Assembly (NCBI RefSeq): GCF_029975155.1
Contig: NZ_JARKPQ010000005.1
Span: 1-64,000 of the forward strand
Origin: Propionicimonas sp.
GTDB taxonomy: Bacteria; Actinomycetota; Actinomycetes; Propionibacteriales; Propionibacteriaceae
Direction: 5' to 3'
DNA: 64,000 nucleotides
How positions within the stretch are numbered: the first letter of the stretch is position 1; every line of letters starts with the position of its first letter. Made by a program: the position numbers and the translations under genes. This document shows, piece after piece, positions 6,171 through 46,620 of the stretch. The notes beneath the pieces were generated by a model. The model did not search any database and was not told where the DNA came from. It saw only the letters and a list, made by a program, of their open reading frames with translations.

Positions 6171-9100
6171 TCACGAGACTGAGTACAAGCGGTCACGAAG
6201 ATCGTCCAGCAACTCCTGCTCGCTCTGGTCGTGGTGGAGGAAGAAGTGGTCGCCCTCGAACACGCGCAATGCGAAGGAGCCGCTGGTCAACCCCTCCCAA
6301 GCGCGCATCTCCTCCTCGACCACGAACGTGTCGCGGCGACCGTGGTAGCCAGCGATAGGAATCGTCAGACGCTCCTCGTCGGGGTCGAACTGATACGTGT
6401 GCACAAGCCGGAAGTCCGAGTACCCAACAGGTTTGAGTGCATCGCGCATCTCGTCATTGACCTCGATTCCGAAGCTCTCACTGATGTAGTCCTCGTACTC
6501 TTGGGACCGATCCTTCGGCATCTGGATCAACTCCTCCACCTCGGGGAGCGTGTCGAAACCGAATTCCTGGAAGGATTCGACCACGCGGTCATAGACGGGG
6601 TTGGACCCGATCGACGGCGACGAGAATGCCCCCACGAACAAGTGCCGCAGCAACCCGTCGGATCGCTCGGCAAGACGATGGGCCAACCGGAAGGCCACCA
6701 AGGCCCCCACACTGTGCCCATAGATCGCGAAGGGCCGGTCCATGTAGCCAGCGAGCACCTGCTCGAGCGCGCCCACCGCTTCATCCATCTCGGAGATGGG
6801 TCGCTCGTTGATTCTGCCCTCCTTCCCGGGGAACTGCACGGGGCACACGTCGATGTCGTCGGGCAACAGGCTCTTCCACGAGGCGTACAGCGATGCGCCC
6901 TTGATGCCGTAGGGAATGCAGAAGAGCCGGGCGCGCGGTGCCGCGGTCAGACGCTCATGGGCCAGCCAGTCGCCGGGCTGCGTCGAATACTCGCCGGAGT
7001 GCCACGAGACCTGCTCGTCCGCTTCATCTCTGGAACCACTGTCATCGGCGCCGTTGATGATCCTCAGGATCGACGCACCCAGACCCTCGATGCTGGGCCC
7101 TTGGATGAGCAGTTCCAGTGAGAGTTGGACGCCAAATTCGTTCTTGACGGATCGGCGCAGCTCAAGCGCGGCAAGCGATTCCAATCCCAATTCCGCCAAG
7201 GAGACGTCGAGGGGGACATCGCCGTCCCCGTTGCCGAGGATGTCCTGGACGGCCGCGACGAGGTGGCCACGAATCCGCGACTCCAGTTCTTCGTCCGCCT
7301 CGGAGCTGAGCCCACCCGCCCTCGCGTCCACGACGGTGCCGTCGTCACCAGGCACCCCCGCGACCTCGCCGGTCAGTTCCTTGGGGATGACACGCAGCCG
7401 CATTCCTTGACACCGGGTCACGTAGTTGCCGCTGCCGTCGTACACGTCGAAGTCGACGGAGATGGATCCGGCCCCCTGGTCATCGACGGCCCACAGATGG
7501 CACCAGACCTCTTCTCCCCAACGTCGGTCGGGAACCTCGAAGTGGGCGATGTCCACAGTGATGTAAAGGTCGTCGTCGGCCAGTTGGTCCCTGCCTGCGA
7601 TCATGGCCAGCTGTGCACAGGCATCGAAGAACCCCGGCGACAGGTGCGCGGCCGCCGCACCCTCGGACGCCCGCGTGCGGATCCTGGCCAGCGCTTGCCG
7701 CGCGCCGATCCGCACCTCCTTGACCAGCCTCACTGAGGCCCCCACTTCGAATCCACGAGCGGCGTAGTCCCGGTAGAAGTCGCTGCCCTCCAAAGTCTGC
7801 GGGCACTGGTCCATGACCTCTTGGCGGCCCTCGCTGGTGACCTTCGGACGCATGGGGACATGACGCGCATGGACGGTGCCTCGGGCGTGGAGTTCCCACA
7901 CGTCACCGTTCGCCTCTCGACTGTGGAACTCGAACGGCTGCTTGCCCTGGTCGTCAGGGCTCCCCATCACCATCTGCACGAGGCGGTCGTCCGTCCCGGA
8001 GATGTGGAGCGCCTTCACGAACGTGAAATCCTCCACGATCATGTCACCGACCATGCCCAGTTCACGCAGTGCGTGCTCGACCATGCGGGTGTAGTAGCCG
8101 ATGTGGAACAGACCACCGGTGTCCGCGATCTCGGGAAGCAGCCAAGTGTTGATGCGAGCCTCGACCTGTCGGGTTGGCAGCGGCGACGCGACGAGGGAAC
8201 CCGGGACCGTCTCCTGGGTCTGGCCGTCGGCGACCGCCACCGGATCCTCGAGGAAGAGCCGGTACTGGAAGGGGTAGGTCGGCAGATTGAGCATTCGCGC
8301 GGGCACGGTCTGGAAGAACCGCTGCCAGTCCATGTCCCACCCCTCCTGGGCCAGGCGCGAGACGCCACTGGACAGCAGCTCCCAGGCACCCTCCGCTCCA
8401 CTCGCCGATGCGACGACGACCGTGTCCGTCCCAGCTCCGCCCAGTTCGCGGCCGGACACGTAGACCACGGCCCTGTAACCGCGTCCGAGAAGTGCGGTCA
8501 TCTGCGCTGCGACGTCCAGAGGTGGGCATGGCTGGTTCCACGAGTCTGCGCCGGTCTGGGCACGACCGTCGGCGCAGATGAAACGCACTTGCGCGGGGCG
8601 CAACTCAACGTCCACCACAGGCCCCTGGCCATGCCTCTGGGCAAGAATCGCCAGGGCCTCGTCCTCGGTGAGCAGGCCAGCCACCACGGCTGCGGGGAGG
8701 TCGCCGTCCCCTTCGGCGAGGACGGCTGCGGGTCGAATGCCCCAAGATGTCCACAATCGAGCGACGCCCAACTGAGCGGCAAAGTCCTGCGCAGCCCGCG
8801 TCAGCAGCTCGTCGCACGAGCCGTCGACGCCCGCCTGCTGATGGGCATCCAACCACTGGGCAACCTGGTTCCAGGTGTCAACAAACACCGACTCAGTGGC
8901 GAGCTCGTCGAGGAGGGCCGAGGGCGCCTCAAGGTGACCGCCGAAGACCATGGCGATGTTGCCGCCTGCGCCTCGGCTGGAACGCCCCCTGTCGATGGCA
9001 TCGGTTAGCTGCCGCACGGCGTCGTCGATCGACTTGACGCAGAATCCCCGCCGGACCCTGTGCTGGACGCGCCCCTCGCACATGGTTCGACACAGGCTCG

Positions 9101-10601
9101 CCAGCGAGGTCTCGGGCTGGGCTTTCACGTATAAGAGGAGCCGGCGCATGCTCTCGGCCAGCGGTTCATCCGCACGAGCCGACATCACCAGAGGATAGGC
9201 GGTCCTGTGACCGGGCTCGTCCGCCGCAGCATCATCATTCTCGTCGGCCTGGGTGATGATTATGTGGGCATTCGTGCCGTTGAACCCAAAGGAACTGATC
9301 CCGGCCGCTCGGACAGCCGTGTCCGGCCAGGGCTCCAGGGCCGTGGGAAACCTGACCGAGGAGACATCGGCCGCAATCCGGGAGTTCAGTTTCGTGAGGT
9401 GCACGTTCGGTGACACTTGCGCGTGCCGCAACGACAGAACCGCCTTGATCAGCCCGGCGACGCCCGCCGCTGCTTCCAGATGCCCGACGACGGACTTGGC
9501 CGACCCCACCAACAGCGGGGCCTTTCTGCGCTCGCTCGCGTAGGATTCCAGGGCCGCACGTACCTCGATCGGGTCACCTAGAGGGGTCCCCGTGCCGTGC
9601 GCCTCAAGGTAATCGACCTGCTCGGGCTCCAATTGTGCCGATTCGAGCGCCTCAGAGATGAGTCGACGCTGGGCCGCTCCGTTGGGGACGGTGACGCCGC
9701 TGCTGTGCCCATCGTGGTTGATCGCGGTGCCACGAATGACCGCGAGGATCGGTGATCCGTCCGCCTGGGCGTCGCTGAGTCGGCGCAGAACCACCATGCC
9801 GCACCCCTCCGACCTCACGTAGCCGTCAGCCGCCTCGTCGAAGACCTTGCACCGGCCATCCGGGGATAGCGCGTGCATCTTCGAGAGCATCACGAATGGC
9901 GCTGGGGAAAGCAGCGCATTGACCCCGCCCACGAGGGCCGCATCGATCTGCCCGCTGCGCAACGCCCCGACCGCCAAGTGGACCGCCACCAGCGACGACG
10001 AGCATGCGGTGTCGACGGCCAGCGCCGGACCGCTCAGGCCCAGGGTGTGTGAGATCCGGCCCACGGCGACGCTCATGACTGAGCCCGTGGCCGCATAGGG
10101 ACCGATGTCCGTGTTGCGGGGCAAGGTGGCGTACTCGGAGGCCGTCGCACCGACGTACACGCCGATGCGATGCCCGGGCAGTCGATCGGAAGGCAGCGCC
10201 GCAGACTCCAAGGCCTCCCAGCTGGTCGTCAGCAAGAGTCGATGTTGGGGGTCCATCTCGCGTGTCTCCGCTTCCGAGATCGAGAAGAACGCGGGGTCGA
10301 ACCGGTAGAGATCATCGGCAAGGAAACCGCCATCGGCGACGTACGTCTTTCCGGGAGCATCCGGATCTGTGTCCAGATACGCCTCGGCGCTCCAGCGATT
10401 GGCGGGCACTCGTGAGATGGCATCCCTGCCCGAAGCGACCAGATCCCAGTACTCGTCGGGATTGGAGACCCCACCCGGAAAGTGGCATGCCATCGCTGAG
10501 ATCGCGATCGGCTCGGTGCCCCGGGACCTCGCCGCTTCGAGTTCATTCCTCAGTTCCTTAATCGTCAGCAGTGCCCGTCGGATCAATGTCTCGTCTTGCA
10601 C
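6171..10601 (-). CDS. PKS-5: terminal PKS module KS14-degenerate AT-hotdog-ACP-TE
   Basis: 1476 residues; last condensation and chain release. The start is GTG 10601, 6 bases after AAAGGAG; an upstream in-frame extension to 10799 overlaps PKS-4 and is rejected. Residues 1-28 form a short helical segment like the N-terminal coiled-coil docking helix of cis-AT PKSs. KS14 spans 31-452 (Cys200, His335, His374). An eroded AT follows (545-750) with AEGDG in place of GHSxG. A double-hotdog domain (810-1072) lacks the DH histidine but keeps D993xxxQ. ACP: 1105-1182, LGLESL, Ser1142. TE: 1222-1472, like the type II thioesterases of PKS/NRPS clusters, with GHSVG Ser1297, Asp1424 and His1452. It lies 55 bases after PKS-4. 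Whether the TE hydrolyses or cyclises cannot be told from sequence. Gene style differs from PKS-1 to PKS-4 and suggests recruitment of a cis-AT module. Confidence 0.9.
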   Translation of the reverse strand: MQDETLIRRALLTIKELRNELEAARSRGTEPIAISAMACHFPGGVSNPDEYWDLVASGRDAISRVPANRWSAEAYLDTDPDAPGKTYVADGGFLADDLYRFDPAFFSISEAETREMDPQHRLLLTTSWEALESAALPSDRLPGHRIGVYVGATASEYATLPRNTDIGPYAATGSVMSVAVGRISHTLGLSGPALAVDTACSSSLVAVHLAVGALRSGQIDAALVGGVNALLSPAPFVMLSKMHALSPDGRCKVFDEAADGYVRSEGCGMVVLRRLSDAQADGSPILAVIRGTAINHDGHSSGVTVPNGAAQRRLISEALESAQLEPEQVDYLEAHGTGTPLGDPIEVRAALESYASERRKAPLLVGSAKSVVGHLEAAAGVAGLIKAVLSLRHAQVSPNVHLTKLNSRIAADVSSVRFPTALEPWPDTAVRAAGISSFGFNGTNAHIIITQADENDDAAADEPGHRTAYPLVMSARADEPLAESMRRLLLYVKAQPETSLASLCRTMCEGRVQHRVRRGFCVKSIDDAVRQLTDAIDRGRSSRGAGGNIAMVFGGHLEAPSALLDELATESVFVDTWNQVAQWLDAHQQAGVDGSCDELLTRAAQDFAAQLGVARLWTSWGIRPAAVLAEGDGDLPAAVVAGLLTEDEALAILAQRHGQGPVVDVELRPAQVRFICADGRAQTGADSWNQPCPPLDVAAQMTALLGRGYRAVVYVSGRELGGAGTDTVVVASASGAEGAWELLSSGVSRLAQEGWDMDWQRFFQTVPARMLNLPTYPFQYRLFLEDPVAVADGQTQETVPGSLVASPLPTRQVEARINTWLLPEIADTGGLFHIGYYTRMVEHALRELGMVGDMIVEDFTFVKALHISGTDDRLVQMVMGSPDDQGKQPFEFHSREANGDVWELHARGTVHARHVPMRPKVTSEGRQEVMDQCPQTLEGSDFYRDYAARGFEVGASVRLVKEVRIGARQALARIRTRASEGAAAAHLSPGFFDACAQLAMIAGRDQLADDDLYITVDIAHFEVPDRRWGEEVWCHLWAVDDQGAGSISVDFDVYDGSGNYVTRCQGMRLRVIPKELTGEVAGVPGDDGTVVDARAGGLSSEADEELESRIRGHLVAAVQDILGNGDGDVPLDVSLAELGLESLAALELRRSVKNEFGVQLSLELLIQGPSIEGLGASILRIINGADDSGSRDEADEQVSWHSGEYSTQPGDWLAHERLTAAPRARLFCIPYGIKGASLYASWKSLLPDDIDVCPVQFPGKEGRINERPISEMDEAVGALEQVLAGYMDRPFAIYGHSVGALVAFRLAHRLAERSDGLLRHLFVGAFSSPSIGSNPVYDRVVESFQEFGFDTLPEVEELIQMPKDRSQEYEDYISESFGIEVNDEMRDALKPVGYSDFRLVHTYQFDPDEERLTIPIAGYHGRRDTFVVEEEMRAWEGLTSGSFALRVFEGDHFFLHHDQSEQELLDDLRDRLYSVS
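8352..8969 (-). other. eroded AT domain inside PKS-5
   Basis: Residues 545-750 of PKS-5 still read as an acyltransferase fold. There is an N-terminal VFGG stretch where VFxGQGxQ is usual. A conserved AQDFAAQLGVARLWTSWGI helix region leads to the nucleophile elbow, which reads AEGDG (8703-8717) instead of GHSxG. The C-terminal part (GYRAVVYVSG and the NLPTYPF exit) is also recognisable. The middle of a normal AT, with its conserved Arg and substrate-binding His segment, is missing, so the domain is about 200 residues instead of about 300. With no serine it cannot load extender units. Confidence 0.8.
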
Positions 10602-10656
10602 GCTGGTCTCCTTTCGTCGGTGCTCGGCAGGGGGTGGGGGTCGGGGATTGCAGGGC

Positions 10657-13600
10657 TCACCAACCTGAGTCCAACTCATCGAGCAATTCGGCGAGTTCGG
10701 ACTGTGCTTGGCTCGGTGGCGTCTCTTGGGCCCGCTCGATGGGTAACAGGGCCGACAACTGTTCCATGTCGGCGACCACGACGCCGACCTCGGCCGCATC
10801 CCCGGCGAGTGCGGCGTCGAAGGTCCTCAGGCCCGATCCGGTGGTGAGCTGAGCGATGCCCAACCGCCTTCGCATCGTTTCGCGGGTTTGCTCGTCCAAC
10901 TCCATGCCGCCATCGCGCCATGTCGGCCAAATGAGGGCACGGCTGAGCCCATGGCGTCGACCGTCGATCCGGAGTTCCTCGCGAGCAGCAGCGAATGAAC
11001 CCAAGAACCGGTTTGCGAAGGCGTAGTCAGTCTGTCCGGGATTTCCACCCACGGACGCCATCGACGAGAAGACCACGAAGAAGTCGAGCCGATCCTCCGA
11101 CGTGGCCGCGTCGAGGTTGAGTGCACCGGCCAATTTGGGATCGATCACCGTGTGCATCTGCTGTGCGGTCCGCGTCAGGAGCATCCCGTCGTCCAAGACG
11201 CCGGCCGCATGGATGACACCGGTGATGGGCCCCCGGTTCCGAACCGACTGCATGAGCGAGGACACTGCCGCTCGGTCGGTCACGTCGATGGACTCGTAGC
11301 TGGCCTCGGCTCCCAGTCGCCGCAGCTCCTCGATCTGGGTGACGTGGCGCCCGTCCTGAGCTGACCTGCCGGTCAGGACCAATCGCTTGACGCCGAGGTT
11401 GACCAAGTGCCGGGCAACGATCCGCCCCAGGCCACCTGCTCCTCCGGTGATAACGCAGGTGCCGCCCCCATCGAGGCGGATCTCTGACGACGATGATTCG
11501 GCCACGTTCGTCTGCCTGAGCGACCGTGTCCACCGCTGCCCCCAACGGTACCGGACCTCGTGCTCGGCTGAGTCACCACCGAGTTCACGCAGGCAGGCCT
11601 CAGCGATAAACGAGACGCGATCGTCCACATGAGCGGTCTCCAGACCCAGCGTGCGAACCACCACGTTGGGACTCTCGTGCCTGACCGCACGACCAAAGCC
11701 ACCGAACCCCTCATGGACGGGATCAGGCGTGCCGTCGAACACGTGGGCGTAGACGATGTCCACAGGGCGAGTGGGGCGAGACCTGACGACGGCCTGCACC
11801 AGGTGGAATGCAGGGAACGAACATTCCCCCTCCGCGCCATCGGCGTGGACCGTCCTGGTGGGGCGGAGGTCGAGAATTACGTCGGGCATCGTCCCCAGAT
11901 CGTCGAAGAGCCGTCGAAGATCGTCCGGCTCGTCGCGCCCGATCCTGAAGGTGGACTGGTCACATCGCGCATATGAGTCCCCGGCAAGGACGAGGACCAC
12001 CGGCTGACCCGGCCACATCCCACGCGCAAGGATGTACTCTCGCACTGCGTCATCCGCGTCAAGGATGACCAGCGGTCCCTTGGGCAGATCGTGGTTGGGG
12101 GCCGCGACCTCCGACGTCACCCAGTTCGCGGTGTAGATGACGCGCTCCAGAGCCGAGTCGTCCGCGAGTTCATCCCGCCCCTCCTCCAACGGAGCCGCGG
12201 CGCTCGACCACGTCCGGGAGAGCTCCGCTGCCAGCTCCTCGATCGTTGGATGGTCGAACATGGCATTCGCATGCAGGACGATGCCAAGGTCCAGTTCAAC
12301 CTGGTTCACCAGCCTCGTGGCGAGCACGGAGTCCATTCCCATCTCGAAGAAGCCGCTGCGACCATCCACGTGGGAAGGATCCGGCATCTCGAGCAGTTCA
12401 GCAACCTTCTCGCCGAGGTACATGGTCAGGATCTGACCGCGCTCGCCCTCGGTGGCGTCCAACAGTTCGCCCTTGAGCCCAGTGCCGATGTCGGACGATG
12501 CACCGGGGGTGCTCACAGCCTCGGCATGAGGCACCGGCGGCGCGGGGGCGGTCGGCTCGGAGCCGCTCGGCCGTGACGCGTCGAAGGGATCGACGATCCA
12601 GTACGACGCGCGCTCGAAAGGGTAGGTCGGCAACGGCACCCGCCCGGGCGTTCCGTGGGGGTAGAGTTGACGCCAGTCAGGTTCCTCTCCACGGAGCCAC
12701 CGCCCGGCCAGGTCGCTCGCGAGGCCCCGCGCCGACTCCTCTCGGTCCGTGTCAGGATCGCGCGGTCCCCCATCCCCGGCACCTGAGCGGGGGGACCCAA
12801 CCTCGGTGACCCGAAGATCATTGGACTCCCGGCCCTCCCGGGCGAAGCTCTCCAGAGTCTCGGCGGCTGCCTTGGGGTCGCTCGTCAGGAGGGCGAGCCT
12901 GTGCTTCAGCGATCGCCGACCGTCCTGGAGGGTCCAGGCGATCGACGAGAGGTCCCCCTCGCTCGGCTCCACGCCCCTGAGATGCTCGGCCAACCTCAAT
13001 GCTGCACTCCTCAGCGCAGACGGGGTCCTGGCCGACAGGACGAGAACCACGGGGCCGTCGCCCCGCAGCCGTCGGTCCTCCACTGGCTTGGGTGCCCCCT
13101 CGACGATCACGTGGACGTTGACGCCGCCGGCCCCGAAGGAACTCACCCCGGCCCGTCTGCGGCCGCCTCTCCCCGCAATTGGCCATGGTCCCAGTGAGCG
13201 CTGCACCGTGAAACCCGCACTGTCGAAGTCGATGTTCGGGTTCAGATTGTCCGAGTGGATCAGCGTCGGAACCATCTGCGCGTGGGTCAACTGCAGGACG
13301 ACCTTGTGCATCTGGGCGATTCCCGCAGCCGCCTCGGCATGACCGATGTTCGACTTGACGGAACCGATCGCACAGCGGGACGGCCTGTCGTTGGCGTCCC
13401 CCAAGGCTCCGACCAGACCCCTGATCTCCAGCGGATCACCAAGGCTGGTCCCCGTGCCGTGCGCCTCCACGTAACTGATGGTGTCGCTGGTCACCGACGC
13501 ATCAGCCAACGCCGCCGAGATCACCTCGGTCTGAGCGACGGGGTTGGGCACGCTGTACCCGAACGTGTGACCGTCATGGTTAATGGCACTCCCCAGGATC

Positions 13601-16600
13601 GTCGCGTATACGTGGTCACCGTCCTCGAGCGCCTGCGAGAGGGGCTTGATCAGTACCGCCCCGACGCCCTCTGCCGGCACGTAGCCATCGCCGCCCTCGC
13701 CGAACGAGTGGCAGCGCCCATCGCCCGCGATGAAGCCAGACTCCGCAAGCGTGACGTACTTCGACGGATGCAGGGTGAGGTTCACTCCCCCCGCGATCGC
13801 GGCGTCGCATTCCTTCCGCCGGATCGCCGCGCACGCCAGGTGGATGGCGCTGAGCGAGGACGAGCATGCCGTGTCCACGGTGAGGCTGGGCCCCGCGAAG
13901 TTCATGAGATACGAAACGCGGTTCGCCAGCGAGAACGTCTGCGAGTTGACGGGGAGCCAGTCGCCGTGCTCCAGCTGGGAGGCGGCGTACATCTGGTAGT
14001 TGTTGTACGTCGCCCCGACGAAGACGCCGACGCGCCCCCTGGAATCACCCGCGGCCCCGCGCGTGATCGTCTCCGGTGTGTGGCCCGAATCCTCGATGCA
14101 CTGCCATGCTGTCTCGATGAACAGGCGCTCCTGGGGATCCAGGAAACGCGCTTCGAGGGGAGAGATGTTGAAGAACTCGGGCTCGAAGGCGTCATACCCA
14201 TCGATGAAACCGCCCCAACTGGGGTACGACTCCTCCCCCAGTCTCTGGCGCGCCACCTCCTCGTACTTCTCCCAGCCGGGACGGTCTGCAGGGATGGGGC
14301 TGACACAATCCCTGCCGTCGACCAAGTTCGTCCAGAACTCCGACAGGTCGTCGGCCATCGGATATCGTCCGCTCATCCCCACGATGGCGAGCGGTCGTCG
14401 ATCCTCGCCCAGCAGTGGGCGCTGGGACATCGTCGCGGCCTCGGACGCCGGGTCACCACTGCCCTTGACGGTGTCTTCACGTACGTCCTCATCGACCTCG
14501 GCGTGGACTGGGACCAGATGGCGGTCGACGTAGTCCGCGAGCGCCCCGGCGGTCTTGAACTCGAACAGCATGGTGGCGGGAAGGGCACCGAACTCAGCGG
14601 CGAACGCCTCGTTGGCCTCCTTCACGAGGACCGAGGTAAATCCCAGTTCCTCGAAGGTCGCCTCGGGGTGGATCTCGGAGGAATCCCACCCGAGCACACG
14701 CGCAAGCAACCGCTGGACGCGCGCCAACGTGGTCCGGCGAGGGGCCTCCTCTCGGCGATCGGTGACGACGTCCGACGGTGCTGGCTTCGGCGTGGGCGGC
14801 TCGGGTTGGGACGCAGTGTGGCTCGCCCCAGGCCGCGCATACTTGCCACGAGGTTCGAGGTCGACCCGGTGAATGGTTGCGTCTAACCAACACCTGCGGG
14901 GCTCGAACGGGTAGGTGGGCAGTGACACCCGCAAGGGGCGTACCCCGTCCCACAGACGGTCCCAGTCGAGGTTGATGCCCCCGACCCAGAGCCGCGCTAG
15001 CTTGTCCGGGGCGTGCGATTCCCGCAGTTCGCGCTGATAGGCATCGCCCTCGGCCCCGGTCAACAACAGCCCGGTGAGGTCCTGCACCGCTGAGACGTCC
15101 CCCGTCCAGACGCCCGGGAGGGACCTCTCGCCGTCCAGGTGTCTCCCCAAGAGGTCGTGGAGTTCCTCAACGCTGCCGGCCACGATGGCCAGACGGTGCG
15201 CGAATGGTTCGCGACCGGTCTGCAGGGTGTAGGCGAGGCCATCGAAGTCGACGGGCGCCCGCGTCAGTTCAGCCAACGCCGAGTCAGCGCCCAGCCCGCT
15301 GCCGATGACGTCCACGAACTCGCTCACCGTCCTGCAACGCCCCGCGGTCACCAGGTCACCAGGAATCTGGTACTTGTCCGACACTCGGGTGCACAGGGTC
15401 GCCATGTCCACCGGATCCAGACCGATCTCGCCAAGATCCTCGTGGGTGTCGATGTCGGACGGATCAACCTGCGCGATGTCGGCCACCAGTCGCGAGACCT
15501 CCTTGAGGCGTGTCTGCGTTTCGACAGGCACACTGCGGCGGTTGCGTTCCAGATGCGCGAGCAGCGCGCGACCTTGACGTTCCAGCGCGTCCATGGTCTT
15601 GGCGCTGAGCGTCACGACCTGGGGACGGCCGGACGAGACCGCCGGAACGGGCTGCCGGTGCTCCTCAAGAACGATGTGGGCGTTGATGCCGCCATACCCG
15701 AAGGAACTGATGCCCGCTCGTCGAGGCGATCCATCGGCGTGGGTGGGCCAAGGTCGGAGTTCGCTCGAGATCGAGAACGGGGTCGGACCCAGGTTCAGAA
15801 GTGGCGACACGGCACGAAGGTTGGACTGCGGTGCGATGACCCCGTCCCTCAACGACAGGAGCACCTTCGTGAGGGACGCCATGCCGGCGGCCGTCTCAAG
15901 GTGACCCACATTGGCCTTCACCGAACCGAGGGCACAACCTGTCCCTGGCGCCGCGTGATGCCGATTGAAGGCCTCAACCAGGCCTTTGATCTCGACAGGA
16001 TCGCCAAGCCGGGTGCCAGTGCCGTGAGTCTCGATGTAGTCGGCGCTGGTGATGGAGACATCGGCTTGGTCCCATGCGGCCTCGATGATGTCGGCCTGGG
16101 ACTGCGCCGATGGAGCGGTCAGTGAGACGCCCCGTCCCCCATGGCCGATCGCCGAGCCCCGGATCAGAGCGTAGACGTGGTCGTGATCCGCTTCGGCGTC
16201 GGACAAACGCTTGAGGACGACGGCCCCGACCCCCTCCCCTCGGACGTACCCGTCAGCATCGGCGCTGAAGGACTTGCAGACGCCGTCGGACGCGAGCATG
16301 CCTGCCTGCGAGAACGCGATGAACCCGGTGGGAGAGCACAAGACATTGACGCCGCCGGCAATGGCAGCGTCCGACTCATGAGCACGCAGCGCTTGGACGG
16401 CACGGTGCATGGCCACCAGGGACGCCGAGCAGGCGGTGTCGATGGGCTCGGAGGTGCCACGCAGGTCATAGAGGAACGAGATGCGATTGGCGAGCAGCGA
16501 GTGCGCAGACCCGGTGGCGGTGTGTGCCCCCACACCCGCCCCAGAGGCCCGCAACAGCTCAGAGTAGTCGAAGCCGCCCACGCCCACAAACAGACACATG

Positions 16601-19600
16601 TTGGTCCGGGCGAATTCACTCATTCGGTGTCCGGAGTCCTCGACCGCAGCCCACACGGTCTGCATGAAGATACGCTGCTGGGGATCCATCAACTCGGCCT
16701 CACCCGGCGAGACCCCAAAGAATTGGCAGTCGAAGTTCTCGACCCCCGGCGCGAAGCCACCGAACCTCACACCATTGGCTTCGTCGTCACCGGAGCCCTG
16801 CCATTCACGCCAGTCCCAACGCCACGCTGGCACCTCTCCGGTCATGACCTCACCGGCGCGCACGCGTCGCCAGAACTCCTCGGTGTCCCCACCCGGGAAG
16901 AGACCAGCCATACCCACGATCGCGATGGGTTCGGGGGCATCGTCACTCTCGTCGATCCGAATCGTGGCCGCCACCTGCGGGGTAGCGGTGGCCAATGGGT
17001 GTGCGTCATCGCGATCCGACGTCCGCTGTGAACCCTTCTCAGCAGGGCCCGGGTCCGTGGGCTCGGCAGGCACGCTGGGAGCGTCCGGCTTGGTCCCAGG
17101 CGTCTCGGGGACGGAGACGGCCCAGCCGCGCTGCGTCGCGACCTCACTGCCGAACTCGTCCGCGACGAAGTCCACGAGCGATCTCAGCGTGGTGTGGTCG
17201 TAGAAGACCGACGGCAGCAGCTCGAGGCCCCACAGGTTATTGAGCCAGGAGGCCAACTCGGTGAACGTGATCGAATCGAAGCCGAACTCGACCAGTTCTG
17301 CCCCCAGGTCGACGTCTTGGTCCGCCAGACCCAGGGTGGTGGCCACACCGCGCGCGAGGTCGCTTCCCAGCAGGTACCTGACGCGGTCCGTCTCCGCGTC
17401 GTGCGCCGGCTGCGCCACCTGATCGACGTTGCTCGGTCGGTCGGCAGGGTGGCCCCTCCGAACCGTGCCGCCGGGTCCGTCCTGGGTTCGGACGTCCCCG
17501 TCCGGCAACCTGGCGGTCTGGTCGGCGAAGAACCGTCCGGCGATCTTGGAGTGATCTCCCTTAACGATCGAAATCACCGGGTGAGGCGCGTCGTGGATGA
17601 GGTTGGCGAGGATGGTGAGGCCCTCCCCCGTTCCCAGCGGGCTCAGACCACCGGTCTGGCGCATGAATCGCTCAGTGGCAGGGTCGATCTGCATTCCGCC
17701 GTCCTTCCACAGCGGCCACTCGATCGATAATGAGGTCCCGGGGTGGCCCGCGTGCCGCGACCGCCAGACCATGAACTCGTCGACGGCCCGGTTGGCATAT
17801 GCGTAGTCCGACTGACCAAGGTTGCCCCTGAGCCCCGCCACTGACGAGAACACCACGAAGAAGTCCAGAGGATCGTCGGACGTCAGTTCGTCGAGGCAGA
17901 CTGCCCCAACCGCCTTGGCAGCGACCACGGCCTCGACATCCCCGGGCGACTTCTCCCAGGTCAGCGAGTCGTTCAGGACGCCCGCCGCGTGCAACACTCC
18001 TCGGATTGGCCCCAGGGTCCGGGCGCGCGCGAGGGCCTCGGCCAAGGCACCGCGATCCGTGACGTCGACCTTGATCGAGGTCACCGGCCCAGCGACCTGG
18101 GCCAGCCATTCGGGGGAGGCACCAGAGCGCGAGAGAACCACGGCGTGCCCGCCGGCGGCGACAATCCAGTCGACAAGGTGCCGACCGACGCCACCTGTTC
18201 CACCGGAGACCAAATACACCTTCCCAGCCAGGATCGGAGTCTCGTGGAGCGTCCAATCAAGCGGAATCTCGCGAATCCTCGGTGATCGGCACCCCTCGGG
18301 GCCCACACGAACTTCCTGGACGCCGGACGTGGTCACCGCGGCGGCCAGTTCCCCGGCCAATGCCGCGACCGGATCGGTCGCCATGACCACTCGAGCGGAG
18401 AAGCCCGACCATTCCAACGCGACACTGTGCGCCCAGGCGCCGACGGGCTTGTCCCACATGCTCATGATGGACTGCTCCTGCCCACTCAGGAACACGAGTC
18501 TGAGCGTGCCGGCGACCCTGTGAACGGCGCCAACCAACGCGGTCAGATCCATCACGCAACGGCGGTTGGATCCACCCATCCACAGCACCAAGTCTGGCTC
18601 CCGCGATGCTCGGGCTGAAGCGGCGTAGGCGTCAGCAGCCGCGTCCGGGAGCACCACCTGCGCCACCTCGCCCCCGGCGCTGGTCACCCGCCGCACCACC
18701 TCGTCCTGGCGCCCCTCGCCGACGACGAGGACCGTCTGCCCCGCCAAGTGCCCTGCGACAGGGCTGGCGCAATCCACCCAGTCCTCGACCAACCCCACGA
18801 CTCCAATGCCCACCCGCCTCAGCTCGAAGTCCCGAATGACAATGAGGACGCGACCTTGGTCGTCCGCGATGTCGAGGTCGAACCGAATCTGATCGGAGCG
18901 GGCGGCGGACGTGGACCGCTGGGCGCGCACCCACATTCGGTCGTCCAACGCTGCGTACCGCTCGATCCGGCCGATCCGGAACGGTAGGTAGAGCGGACGC
19001 ACGGTCTCCTCGACCGGCGCTTCCGAACCGACCACCACACCGCTGATCGTCTGCAGCGCGGCGTCCAGCAAGGACGGGTGGAGCGGCCAGTCATGCACGC
19101 TGTCACGAAGGTCATCGGAGAGTTCGAGACGGGCCAAGGCCTGACCATCACCACGGTGGAGACGGGTGATCGAGCGGAACGATGGGCCATAGGCCAGTCC
19201 GGTCCGGCTGAACTCGTCGTAGCATTCCTCACCAAGTCGGAGGTCGGGGCAGTGCTGTATGACCGACGAGACGTCGAGGAATTCCTGCGTCCCGCGCCCT
19301 GAGCCATACTCGAGACGCCCGCTCGAACACACCTTCTCGTTGTCTCCTTCGAGGCATCCGATGGTGAACGAGGCACGGGTGTCCGACTCCTTGCGGACGA
19401 CCACGTGCACCTCAGCACCCTCGGATGCCATGATCGGCGCCGCCCAGGTCACGTCCGATATGGTGCCGGCCCGCAGCTCGGGGAAGCCGGCCTCGCTGGC
19501 GCGCAGCGCAAGGTCCAGGTGTGCCGCGCCCGGAACGATGTTGTCTCCCTTGACCACGTGGTCACGCACGACGAAGTCTTGGCGCGTCAGATGGACGCGG

Positions 19601-22600
19601 TAGTGGACCTCGTCGTCCTCACGAACGACGCTGGCGCGGGACGTGGCTGTGGCCGACCGCGTCGAGTCCCCCAGGACATCTGTGAACCAGTAACGATCAC
19701 GAGCGAACGGGTAGGGGGGCAGGCTGGTGACCCCGCCGGAGGGGCCCAGGGCGTTCCATTCGACGGGCTCCCCCTCCTCAAACCGACGCGCCGCATCGTG
19801 CCTCGGGTCGGCCCGGACCGCGTGGGCAGGAAACTGACCGCCGCGTGCAAAGGCCTCGAGTTGCGTCACCGCATCGTTGACGTCCACGACCACGAACGCC
19901 GCCCTCGACGCCATGGTCGCCCGACCCGTCTGGAGGGTGTGGGCGGTATCGGAAACCGTCGACCGCCGCTTGGCCAGGTGACCGGCCAAGAGACCAGCCA
20001 TCTCGCGCAGTTGCGGCTCGGTCCTGGCGGAGAGCGGCAGGATGAGGGCTCCCGCCCGATCGACCTCTCCGGGATGGCTGTACTCCTCCACGACGATGTG
20101 CGTGTTGTTGCCCGACATGCCGAAAGAGCTGACCCCCGCACGTCGAGGCGTGCCGGTCCGACGCGGCCATTCCTCCAGATGGTCGTTGATCCGGAGGCCG
20201 GAGTCCTCGATCTCGAGATAGGGGTTCTGCGTCGAATGGTTCGGCATGGCAGGAATCTCACCGTGTTGCATAGAGAGGATCACCTTGATCAGCCCGGCGA
20301 GGCCCGCGCACGCCTCGAGGTGACCGACATGCGACTTGACCGAACCGATCACACAGTCGAATGATGAGTCTTCGCCTGCGACCTCGCGGCGTGCCGTCAC
20401 GAGCGACTTGGTCTCGATGGGGTCCCCTAGGAGGGTTCCCGTCCCGTGCGCCTCGACATACCCGAGAGTGCTCGGGTCGACACCGGCATCGACCCACGCT
20501 TCGTGGAGCACGGCCACCTGGGCTTCCGGGGACGGTGCAGTCGGGCTGTTCGCCCTTCCGTTGTGATTCGTGGCCGTCCCCTTGATCACCGCATGGATCC
20601 TGTCACCGTCCGCGAGCGCCAGATCGAGGGGCTTGAGCAGGACTGAGGCGACCCCCTCGCCGGGAACGTAGCCGTCGGCGGCGGCGTCGAAGGAACGGCA
20701 ACGGCCCGTCGGTGACAGTGCCCCGACCCTGCTGGTGTACACGTAGTGTAGGGGGCTGATGAGCAGGTTCGTCCCCGCCACCACCGCCTGCCGACACTCT
20801 CCGGCGCGGAGGGAGGCCACCGCGAGATGCAAGGCGGTCAGGGAAGAGGCACACGCGTTGTCGACCGGGACGCTTGGCCCCCGGAAATCGAAGATGTACG
20901 ACAGACGCCCCGACAGCGCCGACGGCACGCACGACACCGCTTGGTAGTCCGTGAACTCCACGCCCGATCTGAGGATCTCGTCCCAGTACTCGTGGAAGGC
21001 GACCCCAAGGTAGAAACCGGTGGTGGTCCCCCGCAACAGGTCGGCGCATCCGGCGTCCTGAAGGGTGCCATGGACGACTTCCAGCAGGACACGCAGCTGC
21101 GGGTCCAGCCACAACGCCTCGCGAGGCGCGACTCCGAAGAACCCCGCGTCGAACTTGTCCGCCTCGATGAAGCCGCCCCATCGCGACCGGGACCGGTTCG
21201 GGGCCCCCGGCTCGGGGCTGTACCAGTCGCGCCAGTTCCACCGTTCGGCCGGAACCTCAGTGATCAGGTCGTCGCTGGCACGCAGGTGCTCCCAGAAGGT
21301 CCACAAGTCGGGCGAACCGGGGAAGCGTCCATCCATCCCGACGATCGCAATGTCCCTGTTGCGCTCGGGCACGACGGCCGGGGCGGGCCCCGACGGAGCC
21401 GGAGCCGGCTCGTCGCGGGTCGCGTCCGTTAAGGCTCCGAGACGAGCGGATAGGGCCTCCCCGTGCTGGGCCACTAGGGCCGCGCTGAGCTCTGCGATGG
21501 TGGGATACTCGAAGAACAAGGTGGGGTACAATTCGAGACCCAGGGCGTCCTCCAGAACACCCGTCATGGCAATCATCTGGGCGGAGTCCGCCCCCAGCTC
21601 CATGAAGCTGACCTGGTCGTCCAGAACCTCGCCCGTGCCGAGCGTCCGTTGCACGACCCCGGTCACGTAGCGACGCACGGTCGCGTCCGACGCATCCGAC
21701 GCCCTGGAGGGCGGCTCGGGGGCCGCCCCAGTGGCCTCGGTGGGCTGCGCCGACGTCGGCGCACCGCCGATGCGGCGCAGCGTCATGCCGTCAACCTCGA
21801 GGACGCACCGTCCCTCGTCGTCATGGAAGCGAAGATCCATGGTGATCAACTGGTCCGTCACCCGCACGGAGCTGGCGCGGCACCAGCAGGCGTTCGGAAG
21901 GGTGCTTCCCGTTCCCCGCATGGCCCGCACCGCCATGGTCACCCAGGTCGACCCATCCGATGGCGTCAGGACGGCGGGATCAACGAGCGTGCCGCCGACC
22001 ACGAAACCACCGTCGAGGAGTGCAGGGTGGACCGCGAGCTCCCCCTCCGCCGCGATGGCTTCGGGGCGCAGTTGCAGCCGCCCCAAGGCCTCGTCGCCTC
22101 GGATCCAGACCCGGCTGACGCAGTCGAGAACCGGGGCGCGAGACAGCAGCGGGACCGCCCGGATCTCGTCTGCGGACAGCGTTCGGTCGGACGTCCCCGT
22201 GAACGTATCAACCACCATCGGCTCCGTTGCGCGGCCACCGTCATCCATGTCCCCCAGCTCAGCCGTCATGGTCACGCGCTGCGCTCTCCCGCTGATCGAG
22301 AAGCGACCGACCAGCTTGCTCACATCCGCGTCGTCGCGCTGGACGACCACGTCCACGCTCGCCCCCGGGGGAACCACGACGGGCTCGACAAGCACGAGAT
22401 TGCGCACACCGAATTCCTCGGACGCAAGCTGGGCCGCCATGGAGCAAAGCGTGGTGCCCAGCAGCACCTGCTGCCCCTGGACGACGTGTGCGGCCAAGTA
22501 CGGTTCATCATGAACCCATCGCCGCTGGACGGACTCCCCCCGGGGACGGCTCCGACGCCTCACCAGCTCCCCCACCTGGTCCCTGGTCAGCTGCCCGCGG

Positions 22601-22686
22601 GCGAACATCTCCAAGGCCGCCGTGATCGAGTGCTCGTGGCGGGGCTCGGCAGGGTCGGACTGACGGTTGTCCGGAGTGTCGCTCAT
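10657..22686 (-). CDS. PKS-4: trans-AT PKS, DH*-ACP / KS11-DH-KR-ACP / KS12-pseudoACP-ACP / KS13-ACP-KR
   Basis: 4009 residues. ATG 22686 overlaps the PKS-3 stop (ATGA) and follows GGAGAGG; the ATG at 22707 is a weaker choice. Domains: docking helices 18-48; DH* 57-308 (His67 present, Pro of HxxxGxxxxP is Leu76, Gln of DxxxQ is Val229); ACP Ser368; KS11 443-869 (Cys612, His747, His789); DH 1028-1293 (His1043, Pro1052, Asp1208); KR 1303-1718 (Tyr1628, Asn1632); ACP Ser1805; KS12 1918-2341 (Cys2086, His2221, His2262); pseudo-ACP 2393-2461 (Pro2425); ACP Ser2685; KS13 2765-3197 (Cys2941, His3076, His3116); ACP Ser3453; KR 3513-3978 (Tyr3888, Asn3892, LDD motif of B-type KRs). No cis AT or ER. 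The last module has its ACP before its KR, against the usual order. The short C-terminus (SELAELLDELDSGW) probably meets PKS-5. Confidence 0.9.
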   Translation of the reverse strand: MSDTPDNRQSDPAEPRHEHSITAALEMFARGQLTRDQVGELVRRRSRPRGESVQRRWVHDEPYLAAHVVQGQQVLLGTTLCSMAAQLASEEFGVRNLVLVEPVVVPPGASVDVVVQRDDADVSKLVGRFSISGRAQRVTMTAELGDMDDGGRATEPMVVDTFTGTSDRTLSADEIRAVPLLSRAPVLDCVSRVWIRGDEALGRLQLRPEAIAAEGELAVHPALLDGGFVVGGTLVDPAVLTPSDGSTWVTMAVRAMRGTGSTLPNACWCRASSVRVTDQLITMDLRFHDDEGRCVLEVDGMTLRRIGGAPTSAQPTEATGAAPEPPSRASDASDATVRRYVTGVVQRTLGTGEVLDDQVSFMELGADSAQMIAMTGVLEDALGLELYPTLFFEYPTIAELSAALVAQHGEALSARLGALTDATRDEPAPAPSGPAPAVVPERNRDIAIVGMDGRFPGSPDLWTFWEHLRASDDLITEVPAERWNWRDWYSPEPGAPNRSRSRWGGFIEADKFDAGFFGVAPREALWLDPQLRVLLEVVHGTLQDAGCADLLRGTTTGFYLGVAFHEYWDEILRSGVEFTDYQAVSCVPSALSGRLSYIFDFRGPSVPVDNACASSLTALHLAVASLRAGECRQAVVAGTNLLISPLHYVYTSRVGALSPTGRCRSFDAAADGYVPGEGVASVLLKPLDLALADGDRIHAVIKGTATNHNGRANSPTAPSPEAQVAVLHEAWVDAGVDPSTLGYVEAHGTGTLLGDPIETKSLVTARREVAGEDSSFDCVIGSVKSHVGHLEACAGLAGLIKVILSMQHGEIPAMPNHSTQNPYLEIEDSGLRINDHLEEWPRRTGTPRRAGVSSFGMSGNNTHIVVEEYSHPGEVDRAGALILPLSARTEPQLREMAGLLAGHLAKRRSTVSDTAHTLQTGRATMASRAAFVVVDVNDAVTQLEAFARGGQFPAHAVRADPRHDAARRFEEGEPVEWNALGPSGGVTSLPPYPFARDRYWFTDVLGDSTRSATATSRASVVREDDEVHYRVHLTRQDFVVRDHVVKGDNIVPGAAHLDLALRASEAGFPELRAGTISDVTWAAPIMASEGAEVHVVVRKESDTRASFTIGCLEGDNEKVCSSGRLEYGSGRGTQEFLDVSSVIQHCPDLRLGEECYDEFSRTGLAYGPSFRSITRLHRGDGQALARLELSDDLRDSVHDWPLHPSLLDAALQTISGVVVGSEAPVEETVRPLYLPFRIGRIERYAALDDRMWVRAQRSTSAARSDQIRFDLDIADDQGRVLIVIRDFELRRVGIGVVGLVEDWVDCASPVAGHLAGQTVLVVGEGRQDEVVRRVTSAGGEVAQVVLPDAAADAYAASARASREPDLVLWMGGSNRRCVMDLTALVGAVHRVAGTLRLVFLSGQEQSIMSMWDKPVGAWAHSVALEWSGFSARVVMATDPVAALAGELAAAVTTSGVQEVRVGPEGCRSPRIREIPLDWTLHETPILAGKVYLVSGGTGGVGRHLVDWIVAAGGHAVVLSRSGASPEWLAQVAGPVTSIKVDVTDRGALAEALARARTLGPIRGVLHAAGVLNDSLTWEKSPGDVEAVVAAKAVGAVCLDELTSDDPLDFFVVFSSVAGLRGNLGQSDYAYANRAVDEFMVWRSRHAGHPGTSLSIEWPLWKDGGMQIDPATERFMRQTGGLSPLGTGEGLTILANLIHDAPHPVISIVKGDHSKIAGRFFADQTARLPDGDVRTQDGPGGTVRRGHPADRPSNVDQVAQPAHDAETDRVRYLLGSDLARGVATTLGLADQDVDLGAELVEFGFDSITFTELASWLNNLWGLELLPSVFYDHTTLRSLVDFVADEFGSEVATQRGWAVSVPETPGTKPDAPSVPAEPTDPGPAEKGSQRTSDRDDAHPLATATPQVAATIRIDESDDAPEPIAIVGMAGLFPGGDTEEFWRRVRAGEVMTGEVPAWRWDWREWQGSGDDEANGVRFGGFAPGVENFDCQFFGVSPGEAELMDPQQRIFMQTVWAAVEDSGHRMSEFARTNMCLFVGVGGFDYSELLRASGAGVGAHTATGSAHSLLANRISFLYDLRGTSEPIDTACSASLVAMHRAVQALRAHESDAAIAGGVNVLCSPTGFIAFSQAGMLASDGVCKSFSADADGYVRGEGVGAVVLKRLSDAEADHDHVYALIRGSAIGHGGRGVSLTAPSAQSQADIIEAAWDQADVSITSADYIETHGTGTRLGDPVEIKGLVEAFNRHHAAPGTGCALGSVKANVGHLETAAGMASLTKVLLSLRDGVIAPQSNLRAVSPLLNLGPTPFSISSELRPWPTHADGSPRRAGISSFGYGGINAHIVLEEHRQPVPAVSSGRPQVVTLSAKTMDALERQGRALLAHLERNRRSVPVETQTRLKEVSRLVADIAQVDPSDIDTHEDLGEIGLDPVDMATLCTRVSDKYQIPGDLVTAGRCRTVSEFVDVIGSGLGADSALAELTRAPVDFDGLAYTLQTGREPFAHRLAIVAGSVEELHDLLGRHLDGERSLPGVWTGDVSAVQDLTGLLLTGAEGDAYQRELRESHAPDKLARLWVGGINLDWDRLWDGVRPLRVSLPTYPFEPRRCWLDATIHRVDLEPRGKYARPGASHTASQPEPPTPKPAPSDVVTDRREEAPRRTTLARVQRLLARVLGWDSSEIHPEATFEELGFTSVLVKEANEAFAAEFGALPATMLFEFKTAGALADYVDRHLVPVHAEVDEDVREDTVKGSGDPASEAATMSQRPLLGEDRRPLAIVGMSGRYPMADDLSEFWTNLVDGRDCVSPIPADRPGWEKYEEVARQRLGEESYPSWGGFIDGYDAFEPEFFNISPLEARFLDPQERLFIETAWQCIEDSGHTPETITRGAAGDSRGRVGVFVGATYNNYQMYAASQLEHGDWLPVNSQTFSLANRVSYLMNFAGPSLTVDTACSSSLSAIHLACAAIRRKECDAAIAGGVNLTLHPSKYVTLAESGFIAGDGRCHSFGEGGDGYVPAEGVGAVLIKPLSQALEDGDHVYATILGSAINHDGHTFGYSVPNPVAQTEVISAALADASVTSDTISYVEAHGTGTSLGDPLEIRGLVGALGDANDRPSRCAIGSVKSNIGHAEAAAGIAQMHKVVLQLTHAQMVPTLIHSDNLNPNIDFDSAGFTVQRSLGPWPIAGRGGRRRAGVSSFGAGGVNVHVIVEGAPKPVEDRRLRGDGPVVLVLSARTPSALRSAALRLAEHLRGVEPSEGDLSSIAWTLQDGRRSLKHRLALLTSDPKAAAETLESFAREGRESNDLRVTEVGSPRSGAGDGGPRDPDTDREESARGLASDLAGRWLRGEEPDWRQLYPHGTPGRVPLPTYPFERASYWIVDPFDASRPSGSEPTAPAPPVPHAEAVSTPGASSDIGTGLKGELLDATEGERGQILTMYLGEKVAELLEMPDPSHVDGRSGFFEMGMDSVLATRLVNQVELDLGIVLHANAMFDHPTIEELAAELSRTWSSAAAPLEEGRDELADDSALERVIYTANWVTSEVAAPNHDLPKGPLVILDADDAVREYILARGMWPGQPVVLVLAGDSYARCDQSTFRIGRDEPDDLRRLFDDLGTMPDVILDLRPTRTVHADGAEGECSFPAFHLVQAVVRSRPTRPVDIVYAHVFDGTPDPVHEGFGGFGRAVRHESPNVVVRTLGLETAHVDDRVSFIAEACLRELGGDSAEHEVRYRWGQRWTRSLRQTNVAESSSSEIRLDGGGTCVITGGAGGLGRIVARHLVNLGVKRLVLTGRSAQDGRHVTQIEELRRLGAEASYESIDVTDRAAVSSLMQSVRNRGPITGVIHAAGVLDDGMLLTRTAQQMHTVIDPKLAGALNLDAATSEDRLDFFVVFSSMASVGGNPGQTDYAFANRFLGSFAAAREELRIDGRRHGLSRALIWPTWRDGGMELDEQTRETMRRRLGIAQLTTGSGLRTFDAALAGDAAEVGVVVADMEQLSALLPIERAQETPPSQAQSELAELLDELDSGW
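15304..15510 (-). other. pseudo-ACP C, inside the post-KS12 linker of PKS-4
   Basis: Residues 2393-2461 of PKS-4 have the helix pattern and hydrophobic spacing of an acyl carrier protein (VSRLVADIAQVDPSDID, then LGEIGLDPVDMATL). The phosphopantetheine serine is Pro2425 (codon CCG, 15412-15414). It interrupts the normal KS linker between ALLAHLERN and the continuation LAYTLQTGREP. The paralogous KS8 linker in PKS-3 has no such insert. A genuine ACP with LGFTSVL follows about 190 residues later. Confidence 0.75.
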
Positions 22687-22817
22687 GCTCGCGGATTCCT
22701 CTCCCATGGTTCTGCGGACGCGGGATTCGCTCCCAACAACACTGAGGCCGCCTCCGGGGACAGCTGGCCGGCTTCGATCTTGTCGAGCACTGCCTCGAGG
22801 TCGCCCACCGCCAGGTC
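22543..22817 (-). other. docking pair PKS-3 C-terminus / PKS-4 N-terminus
   Basis: PKS-3 ends with a two-helix motif (LEAVLDKIEAGQLSPEAA) just after KS10. PKS-4 begins with a matching one (AALEMFARGQLTRDQVGEL) just before DH*. The L..L....G.L[ST]...A pattern resembles the four-helix-bundle docking domains described at split KS|DH sites of trans-AT PKSs. It would reunite one module over two proteins. Confidence 0.65.
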
Positions 22818-34244: not shown

Positions 34245-34333
34245 GCCATTTCCTCCACTCGTTTGCGGGCGTCCGTCACAGTGATCTCTCTCCTAGACAG
34301 TTTGGAGAGCAGATCCTCCAATGGATCCGGCTC
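34140..34333 (-). other. docking pair PKS-2 C-terminus / PKS-3 N-terminus
   Basis: PKS-2 ends DPLEDLLSKLSRREITVTDA; PKS-3 begins with VDDILARIESGSLSPADGA. Both share the short leucine-rich two-helix pattern of four-helix-bundle docking domains. Here the split lies between DH (PKS-2) and KR (PKS-3), not between KS and DH as at the other two junctions. Confidence 0.6.
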
Positions 34334-46525: not shown

Positions 46526-46620
46526 CGGAGTCCCTCCACCTTGTCGAACGCCTCGTCCACTGTGAGCTGACCGTCCCTGACGGCATCAAGCAACCGCTCA
46601 AGCTCGTCCTCGCCCGCACC
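46406..46620 (-). other. docking pair PKS-1 C-terminus / PKS-2 N-terminus
   Basis: PKS-1 ends with ELERLLDAVRDGQLTVDEA after KS4. PKS-2 begins with EVLRQTLREVRDGRMSNREA before its DH*. The two segments resemble each other (VRDG followed by a small polar residue and a second helix), as expected for paired four-helix-bundle docking domains at a KS|DH split. Confidence 0.65.

Follow-up and report, generated by a model that had tools for sequence, protein, structure and literature searches.

The question raised by this locus is how the last module of a trans-AT polyketide synthase (PKS) line comes to carry the remains of an acyltransferase (AT), and from where such a module would obtain its malonyl units. 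The window, the whole stretch of 64,000 nucleotides that was analysed, encodes five PKS proteins on the minus strand, PKS-1 to PKS-5, with 4, 3, 3, 3, and 1 KS domains. The line combines AT-less modules with an AT outside the PKS proteins, and thus is a trans-AT line: the frames of KS1-13, the remaining KSs of the window, gave no AT match above 10 bits, and an AT-AT-ER protein is encoded nearby (Table 1). According to the domain models, the order in PKS-5 is KS14, linker, degenerate AT, DH-like domain, ACP, and TE, and the domain model search gave no KR match anywhere in the PKS-5 protein. Taken together, the evidence makes it probable that PKS-5, the terminal module, descends from a cis-AT module (KS-AT-DH-ACP-TE), ends the trans-AT line with a dead AT, and has its ACP14 fed in trans, most likely by AT2 of the AT-AT-ER protein. 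The true start of PKS-5 is likely the GTG at 10601, behind AAAGGAGA; the N-terminal helical segment that follows is presumably of the docking type. At 3-2174, about 4 kb from the pks5 end, lies a large serine recombinase with Resolvase, Recombinase, and zinc ribbon domains, and the edge of the cluster may therefore be mobile.

Table 1. Positions of PKS-5, its domains, and the related features in the window
Feature	Position	Strand	Remarks
PKS-5 open frame	6174-10799	-	1542 codons, stop-free
Terminal thioesterase	6198..6929	-	GHSVG and GDHFF
ACP14	7074..7262	-	serine in LGLESL
DH-like domain	7371..8180	-	His of HxxxGxxxxP gone; HIGYY (8091-8105) and DxxxQ (FFDACAQ) retained
Post-AT linker LNLPTYPFQYRLFLEDPVA	8235..8291	-	structure and sequence alignments
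Degenerate AT	8292..8960	-	N-terminal half of large subdomain, elbow AEGDG; ferredoxin-like subdomain absent; C-terminal end shorter
Junction region	8544..8636	-	about 90 residues of an intact AT absent (small subdomain including catalytic His)
AEGDG at GHSxG position	8703..8717	-	nucleophile Ser to Gly
KS-AT linker (KAsynt_C_assoc / RhiE-like linker)	9000..9362	-	domain model match
KS14	9246..10514	-	motifs DTACSSS, HGTGT, and KSVVGHLEAAAG all present; cis-AT clade in trees
Likely start GTG 10601 and N-terminal helical docking segment	10524..10601	-	ribosome site AAAGGAGA upstream of GTG
PKS-1 to PKS-4, 13 KSs	10657..59982	-	frames without AT match
PfaD-type enoyl reductase of AT-AT-ER protein	61806..63095	-	TIGR02814, 585 bits
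Second AT (AT2) of AT-AT-ER protein	63174..63998	-	carries GHSLG, the Arg of KIRG, and GAFHS; DisD is the best match among solved structures

An AT remnant behind KS14 had been reported in an earlier note on this DNA, at 8352-8969 (residues 611-816 of PKS-5), and its presence was confirmed, with AEGDG in place of GHSxG and about 90 residues absent. Compared with solved structures, residues 434-882 match the DEBS module 5-type and other cis KS-AT didomains over the KS end, the linker, and the AT's first half as far as about residue 722. For DEBS 2hg4, a single stretch scores 109 bits (E 1.6e-31, query 2-289), and for CurL a second, weak stretch (14 bits, i-E 0.13) leads from about residue 749 into 'LNLPTYPFQ', reaching the post-AT linker. 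The match of the 'AT-less' chains 4qyr, 4zdn, and 4tkt is confined to the linker part and ends at query 154-169. The lowest E-value (2.8e-35) belongs to 7zma, a two-module PKS that we take to be trans-AT, and is summed over two copies with 57 and 56 bits, and its strongest match goes no further than query 218, short of the elbow. Since 7zma also matches weakly at LPTYPF (6 bits), this motif cannot by itself establish an AT.

These 7zma matches would agree with a segment that is only an ordinary trans-AT KS-flanking ('AT docking') linker and no AT remnant at all, as would the description of AT-less modules as keeping the KS-AT linker, formerly called 'AT docking domains' (PMC6164871). Such a reading is hardly credible, however, and was rejected, because the alignment to cis KS-AT didomains runs well past the standard KS-AT linker and extends to the AT elbow, and the AT model, which gives no match in the frames of KS1-13, matches this segment. 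A better fit to trans-AT linkers, named in the earlier note as a finding that would speak against a fossil AT, was therefore not observed.

The size of the loss can be seen from the distance between the elbow and the post-AT anchor, which is 142 residues in PKS-5 versus 233 +/- 12 (186-259) in 60 intact ATs. The Pfam AT model (PF00698) did not reach E 1e-3 anywhere on PKS-5. With the AT model made from the fetched loci, the N-terminal half gave 25.8 bits (conditional E 4.4e-10) and the C-terminal half -1.3 bits, so the case for a kept C-terminal end comes from length, spacing, and the post-AT linker. No match in PKS-5 was found for model positions 112-207, the nucleophile being at about position 87. 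These unmatched positions span the catalytic His, so that what PKS-5 lacks is equivalent to the small ferredoxin-like subdomain, with the exact borders of the subdomains taken from FabD. For the disorazole AT, S86 is described as the nucleophile and H191 as the general base (PMC11907408). Both features of an active enzyme under PF00698 are absent from PKS-5: the Ser of GHSxG, which occupies its column in 59 of the 60 intact ATs, is lost in AEGDG, and the ferredoxin-like subdomain with the catalytic His is gone. Judged from the alignments, the AT of PKS-5 has lost its nucleophile together with the stretch containing the catalytic His. The original description, in which both ends are kept, the middle is absent, and GHSxG has become AEGDG, thus holds in outline, with the middle now identified as the ferredoxin-like subdomain and the C-terminal end found to be shortened. 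What is left would be a shell made up of the post-AT linker and a portion of the alpha/beta core. An AlphaFold model from the single sequence of the remnant had a pLDDT of 39.5, too poor to judge the folding of the core.

The origin of the module was approached through its KS and DH domains. In a tree of 131 KSs, which omits 5 of 136 (3 from the near-copy L015 and 2 of less than 350 residues), KS14 falls into a 54-row clade with SH-aLRT 99, consisting of 44 cis rows, 5 with a degenerate AT, 4 with none, and 1 cut, and all 13 other KSs of the window lie outside. This separation is not perfectly pure, with the 4 AT-less rows inside the clade and 4 of the 48 cis rows outside. A second tree of 70 rows covers part of the loci, with at most 2 rows per class and source except for the window and the rows with AT remnants of the same kind. 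Here the clade of KS14 (99/99) contains 32 rows, namely 21 with an intact AT, 10 without the small subdomain, and 1 split between frames; outside it are 12 of 12 other window KSs (KS1 not included), 2 of 23 intact-AT rows, and, weakly (88/25), the KS of Tolypothrix. A phylogeny of KS14 had been proposed as a check on the first reading, and in both trees KS14 groups with the KSs that precede an intact AT and not with the trans-AT clades. Additionally, a profile made from the DHs of PKS-5 and of G206, a genome of a different genus in the same family, was compared by score, with no tree: DHs behind intact ATs reached up to 102.6 bits (G698, G538, and G419), and the best DH of PKS-5's own line reached 32.8 bits. 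The clade of KS14 and the DH scores indicate that the KS and the DH, and probably the whole PKS-5 module, are of cis-AT type; it would then have moved as a single piece. The DH-like domain at 7371-8180 may itself have lost its DH activity, or may act as a hot-dog enzyme of different chemistry.

The same module is present elsewhere. In Actinomyces israelii DSM 43320 it shows 48 differences in 4428 bases, and an assembly error was therefore rejected; over a 567-residue segment of PKS-5 the identity is 99%, and residues 68-95 of PKS-5 show no difference. Among 29 other genomes of the window's genus, none matched the AT-DH segment at E 1e-5. G206 contains a 1539-residue frame with KS, degenerate AT (GDGAG), DH, ACP, and TE, whose DH has the HIGYY motif in common with that of PKS-5. 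This module is located downstream of AT-less KSs, at the end of a trans-AT line of its own, with two KS-free ATs (frames of 350 and 774 residues) about 45-51 kb upstream. The KSs of PKS-5 and G206 are sisters in the 70-row tree (99/85). Their identity is 52% in the KS, 24% in the AT remnant, 31% in the DH, and 33% in the TE; the alignment of the two remnants scores 8.4 SD above 100 shuffles, and the AT tree itself does not join them. Because the same type of module ends the trans-AT line of G206, the AT-dead state appears to be old and inherited, and it is simplest to assume that the ancestor common to both already carried the module. Elsewhere in G206 (L046, G206:C1:1105000-1124999), two KSs of one protein are identical and a third is nearly so, a hint of recent module duplication within the trans-AT line.

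Retention of the remnant can also be judged from substitutions. A comparison of the window with A. israelii shows nine changes in the remnant, 7 of them synonymous and 2 nonsynonymous, and from this single genome pair a dN/dS of 0.098 is obtained; the values are 0.089 for the KS, 0.104 for the DH, and 0.52 for the KS-AT linker (2 synonymous and 3 nonsynonymous). Under neutrality, 2 or fewer nonsynonymous changes of 9 have a probability of 0.0015, and no difference in selection was found between the remnant and the KS (Fisher p 1.0). On these nine changes, the comparison shows purifying selection on the remnant comparable to that on the KS. The term 'fossil', used in the earlier note, is apt for a degenerate AT and undersells a segment under such selection. 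Over longer times, the identity of 23.9% between the remnants of PKS-5 and G206, taken with the post-AT linker, lies below all 640 intact-AT pairs of similar KS identity, taken without it (39 +/- 6, minimum 26), and this speaks for relaxed constraint. Retention of the shell for its shape, with its chemistry no longer needed, would give both the purifying selection seen now and the faster long-term change; the KS-linker-AT body may need the remnant for folding or docking.

In PKSs, malonyl is loaded onto the ACP and not onto the KS, which takes the growing chain. The statement that KS14 receives malonyl thus has to be corrected, as the recipient is ACP14. At E <= 1e-3, three AT places were found in the genome, namely the two ATs of the AT-AT-ER protein plus one 348-residue frame that is FabD-like; the genome is a 5.0 Mb draft of 404 contigs with contamination 8.31, of which the window is part of contig C80, and a further AT could therefore be missing from it. 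The AT-ER protein had been named before as the malonyl source. A malonyl-type AT without KS is indeed encoded there beside the PKS genes, and AT2 is the proposed supplier of malonyl to ACP14, a loading step that we infer from its motifs and position. In the same protein, whose locus lies partly past the right end of the window (L004, C80:60000-66086), the first AT reads GASLG and has no malonyl Arg. A missing Arg at this position is described as diagnostic of acyl hydrolases (PMC11775670), and together these features suggest that this first AT is an acyl hydrolase, joined to AT and ER in one protein.

Loading of ACP14 by FabD of primary metabolism, or by another AT, is quite unlikely. It draws on the FabD-like gene of the genome and on similar lesions in G092 and in plasmids of Nostoc and Burkholderia arboris, where no AT was found outside KS-bearing or large frames, in a search in which G092 has a 307-residue FabD-like frame and Nostoc and B. 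arboris are covered by plasmid records without their chromosomes. Against this, a DisD-like AT with intact motifs is present in the same cluster, and the modules of the 13 AT-less KSs require some AT anyway. With AT2 as the most likely donor, KS14 would carry out a condensation, and the TE would then release the chain. The loss of the AT catalytic residues and the DH His and the absence of a KR match could also fit a non-elongating module, in which PKS-5 merely hands the chain to its TE; but the condensing motifs of KS14, the ACP serine, and the TE serine are all intact, and purifying selection acts across the module, which makes a non-elongating role improbable.

PKS-5 is not the only module with this lesion. 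Among 157 KSs of long loci, 64 have no AT, 22 are cut by the contig or frame, 60 have an intact AT, and 11 have an AT without the small subdomain; no other kind of AT truncation was found among them. Of the 71 KS-AT modules in which AT sequence remains, 11 thus have a degenerate AT, in each case without the ferredoxin-like subdomain. These figures refer to a non-random set, since L100, L101, and L104, with 4 of the 11 'hollow' ATs, were fetched for a hollow-like match; classes were assigned by script, with the AT model from ATs of the fetched loci, for long translated loci only and with L015 excluded, the overlapping G206 stretches L072, L098, and L099 count some AT-less KSs twice, and the near-identical species G037 and G132 are both included. 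The 11 are from the window, G206, G092, Nostoc sp. C052 (two), a B. arboris plasmid (two), G419, G335 (two), and Tolypothrix PCC 7601. Between elbow and anchor, 70 and 103 residues remain in one B. arboris and one G335 module, and 129-168 in the other nine. In the nucleophile column, 8 of the 11 have Gly and 2 have Ala, and Tolypothrix alone keeps Ser (GHSVG), the assignment of the column being unsure in the two modules with larger losses (one of B. arboris, one of G335); Ser is lost in 10 of 11 hollow ATs versus 1 of 60 intact ATs (Fisher p 2.6e-10). PKS-5 shows the features of the class: the core is kept, the small subdomain is gone, and the elbow Ser is changed to Gly or Ala. Two further candidates were dropped, G494 for unknown bases in the stretch and G546 for an AT that is intact.

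A single origin of all 11 was rejected (single clade, AU p 7e-9), and in the AT tree, built from the remaining columns, the branches marked with a star require a minimum of 4 state changes. The hollow AT of G419 joins the intact AT of its own line (100/92), and that of Tolypothrix its own neighbour (100/96). Five hollow ATs, those of G206, the window, G092, and both B. arboris modules, group weakly on long branches (79/84); they may share an origin according to this tree, and their KSs are spread in the 70-row KS tree. Several of these loci have features of their own. The G419 stretch (L100, G419:C8:122000-141999) with its hollow AT is possibly a mixed cis/trans line; it also encodes one intact cis AT, one KS that lacks an AT and falls near trans-AT KSs, and an AT whose frame has no KS. 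In the Tolypothrix sp. PCC 7601 plasmid (L104), the subdomain-less AT at 8001-8834 with GHSVG intact adjoins a gene with a full AT, and this module is possibly an early stage of AT loss. L101 (G335:C1:7621000-7640999) has two hollow ATs of differing extent in one 4823-residue frame, and the KSs of its modules 2 and 3 are nearly identical, a hint of gene conversion.

With the same lesion in unrelated bacteria, a unique fossil is too narrow a description, and the lesion looks like a repeated route of enzyme retirement and not a one-off relic. The pattern is read as repeated loss with the core kept, and a bias in which deletions arise could be an alternative. We tentatively propose, with confidence somewhat short of even, that 'hollow' ATs are a general, repeatedly evolved class, in which selection keeps the alpha/beta core in the KS-linker body while lesions converge on in-frame loss of the subdomain and change of the elbow Ser to Gly or Ala, and which marks cis modules fed in trans in trans-AT and cis-AT lines alike. 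Intact cis ATs adjoin the hollow one in the lines of G092, Nostoc, B. arboris, and G335, and for this reason the lesion alone is no proof of conversion to trans-AT use. Of the conversion claimed for PKS-5 at the outset, the cis ancestry and the AT loss are upheld. The same lines would allow the AT to have decayed inside a cis-AT line, with the AT-dead module captured by a trans-AT line later. This order of events is possible and rather doubtful; in the 70-row tree, with long stretches from 14 of the 34 other genomes with KS matches, the pair of the window and G206 has no sister with an intact AT or with a dead AT of a cis line. The AT may have died before or after the module joined the trans line.

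The exchange of parts between cis-AT and trans-AT lines is an open question, with module exchange described as widespread in trans-AT lines and all but unknown in cis-AT lines (PMC7930024). PKS-5 adds a concrete case: a cis-type module, found in two genera, that closes a trans line and has had its AT emptied in a specific manner. If this is a general solution, it would represent a naturally tested way of switching off a cis AT with the KS-AT body retained, and annotators would gain a mark for modules fed in trans. No description of this subdomain loss was found in the open-licence papers searched, and none of the titles found there for A. israelii and polyketide synthases dealt with this cluster.

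Lines of kirromycin or aurodox type resemble that of PKS-5 in being trans-AT lines with one cis-AT-type PKS, which in the hybrid trans-AT/cis-AT line of kirromycin is KirAVI; however, KirAVI is described as AT-harbouring (PMC5818483), and the AT of PKS-5 is dead. The intact arrangement is also seen in a plasmid stretch of S. globosus (L081), where two modules with intact ATs stand beside AT-less KSs. AT-less KSs have reportedly been studied by Lohman et al. in 2015. The pepstatin PKS PepC, for which a 'truncated AT domain' is described (PMC12081711), is like PKS-5 in having a truncated AT. For algal PKSs, displacement of cis ATs in trans was proposed from KS phylogeny, with no remnant AT mentioned in the available part of that report (PMC4661987). 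In AT-less modules the KS is followed by a linker domain and loading occurs in trans, as proposed for PKS-5; whereas AT-less chains match the linker part only, the segment in PKS-5 extends into the AT.
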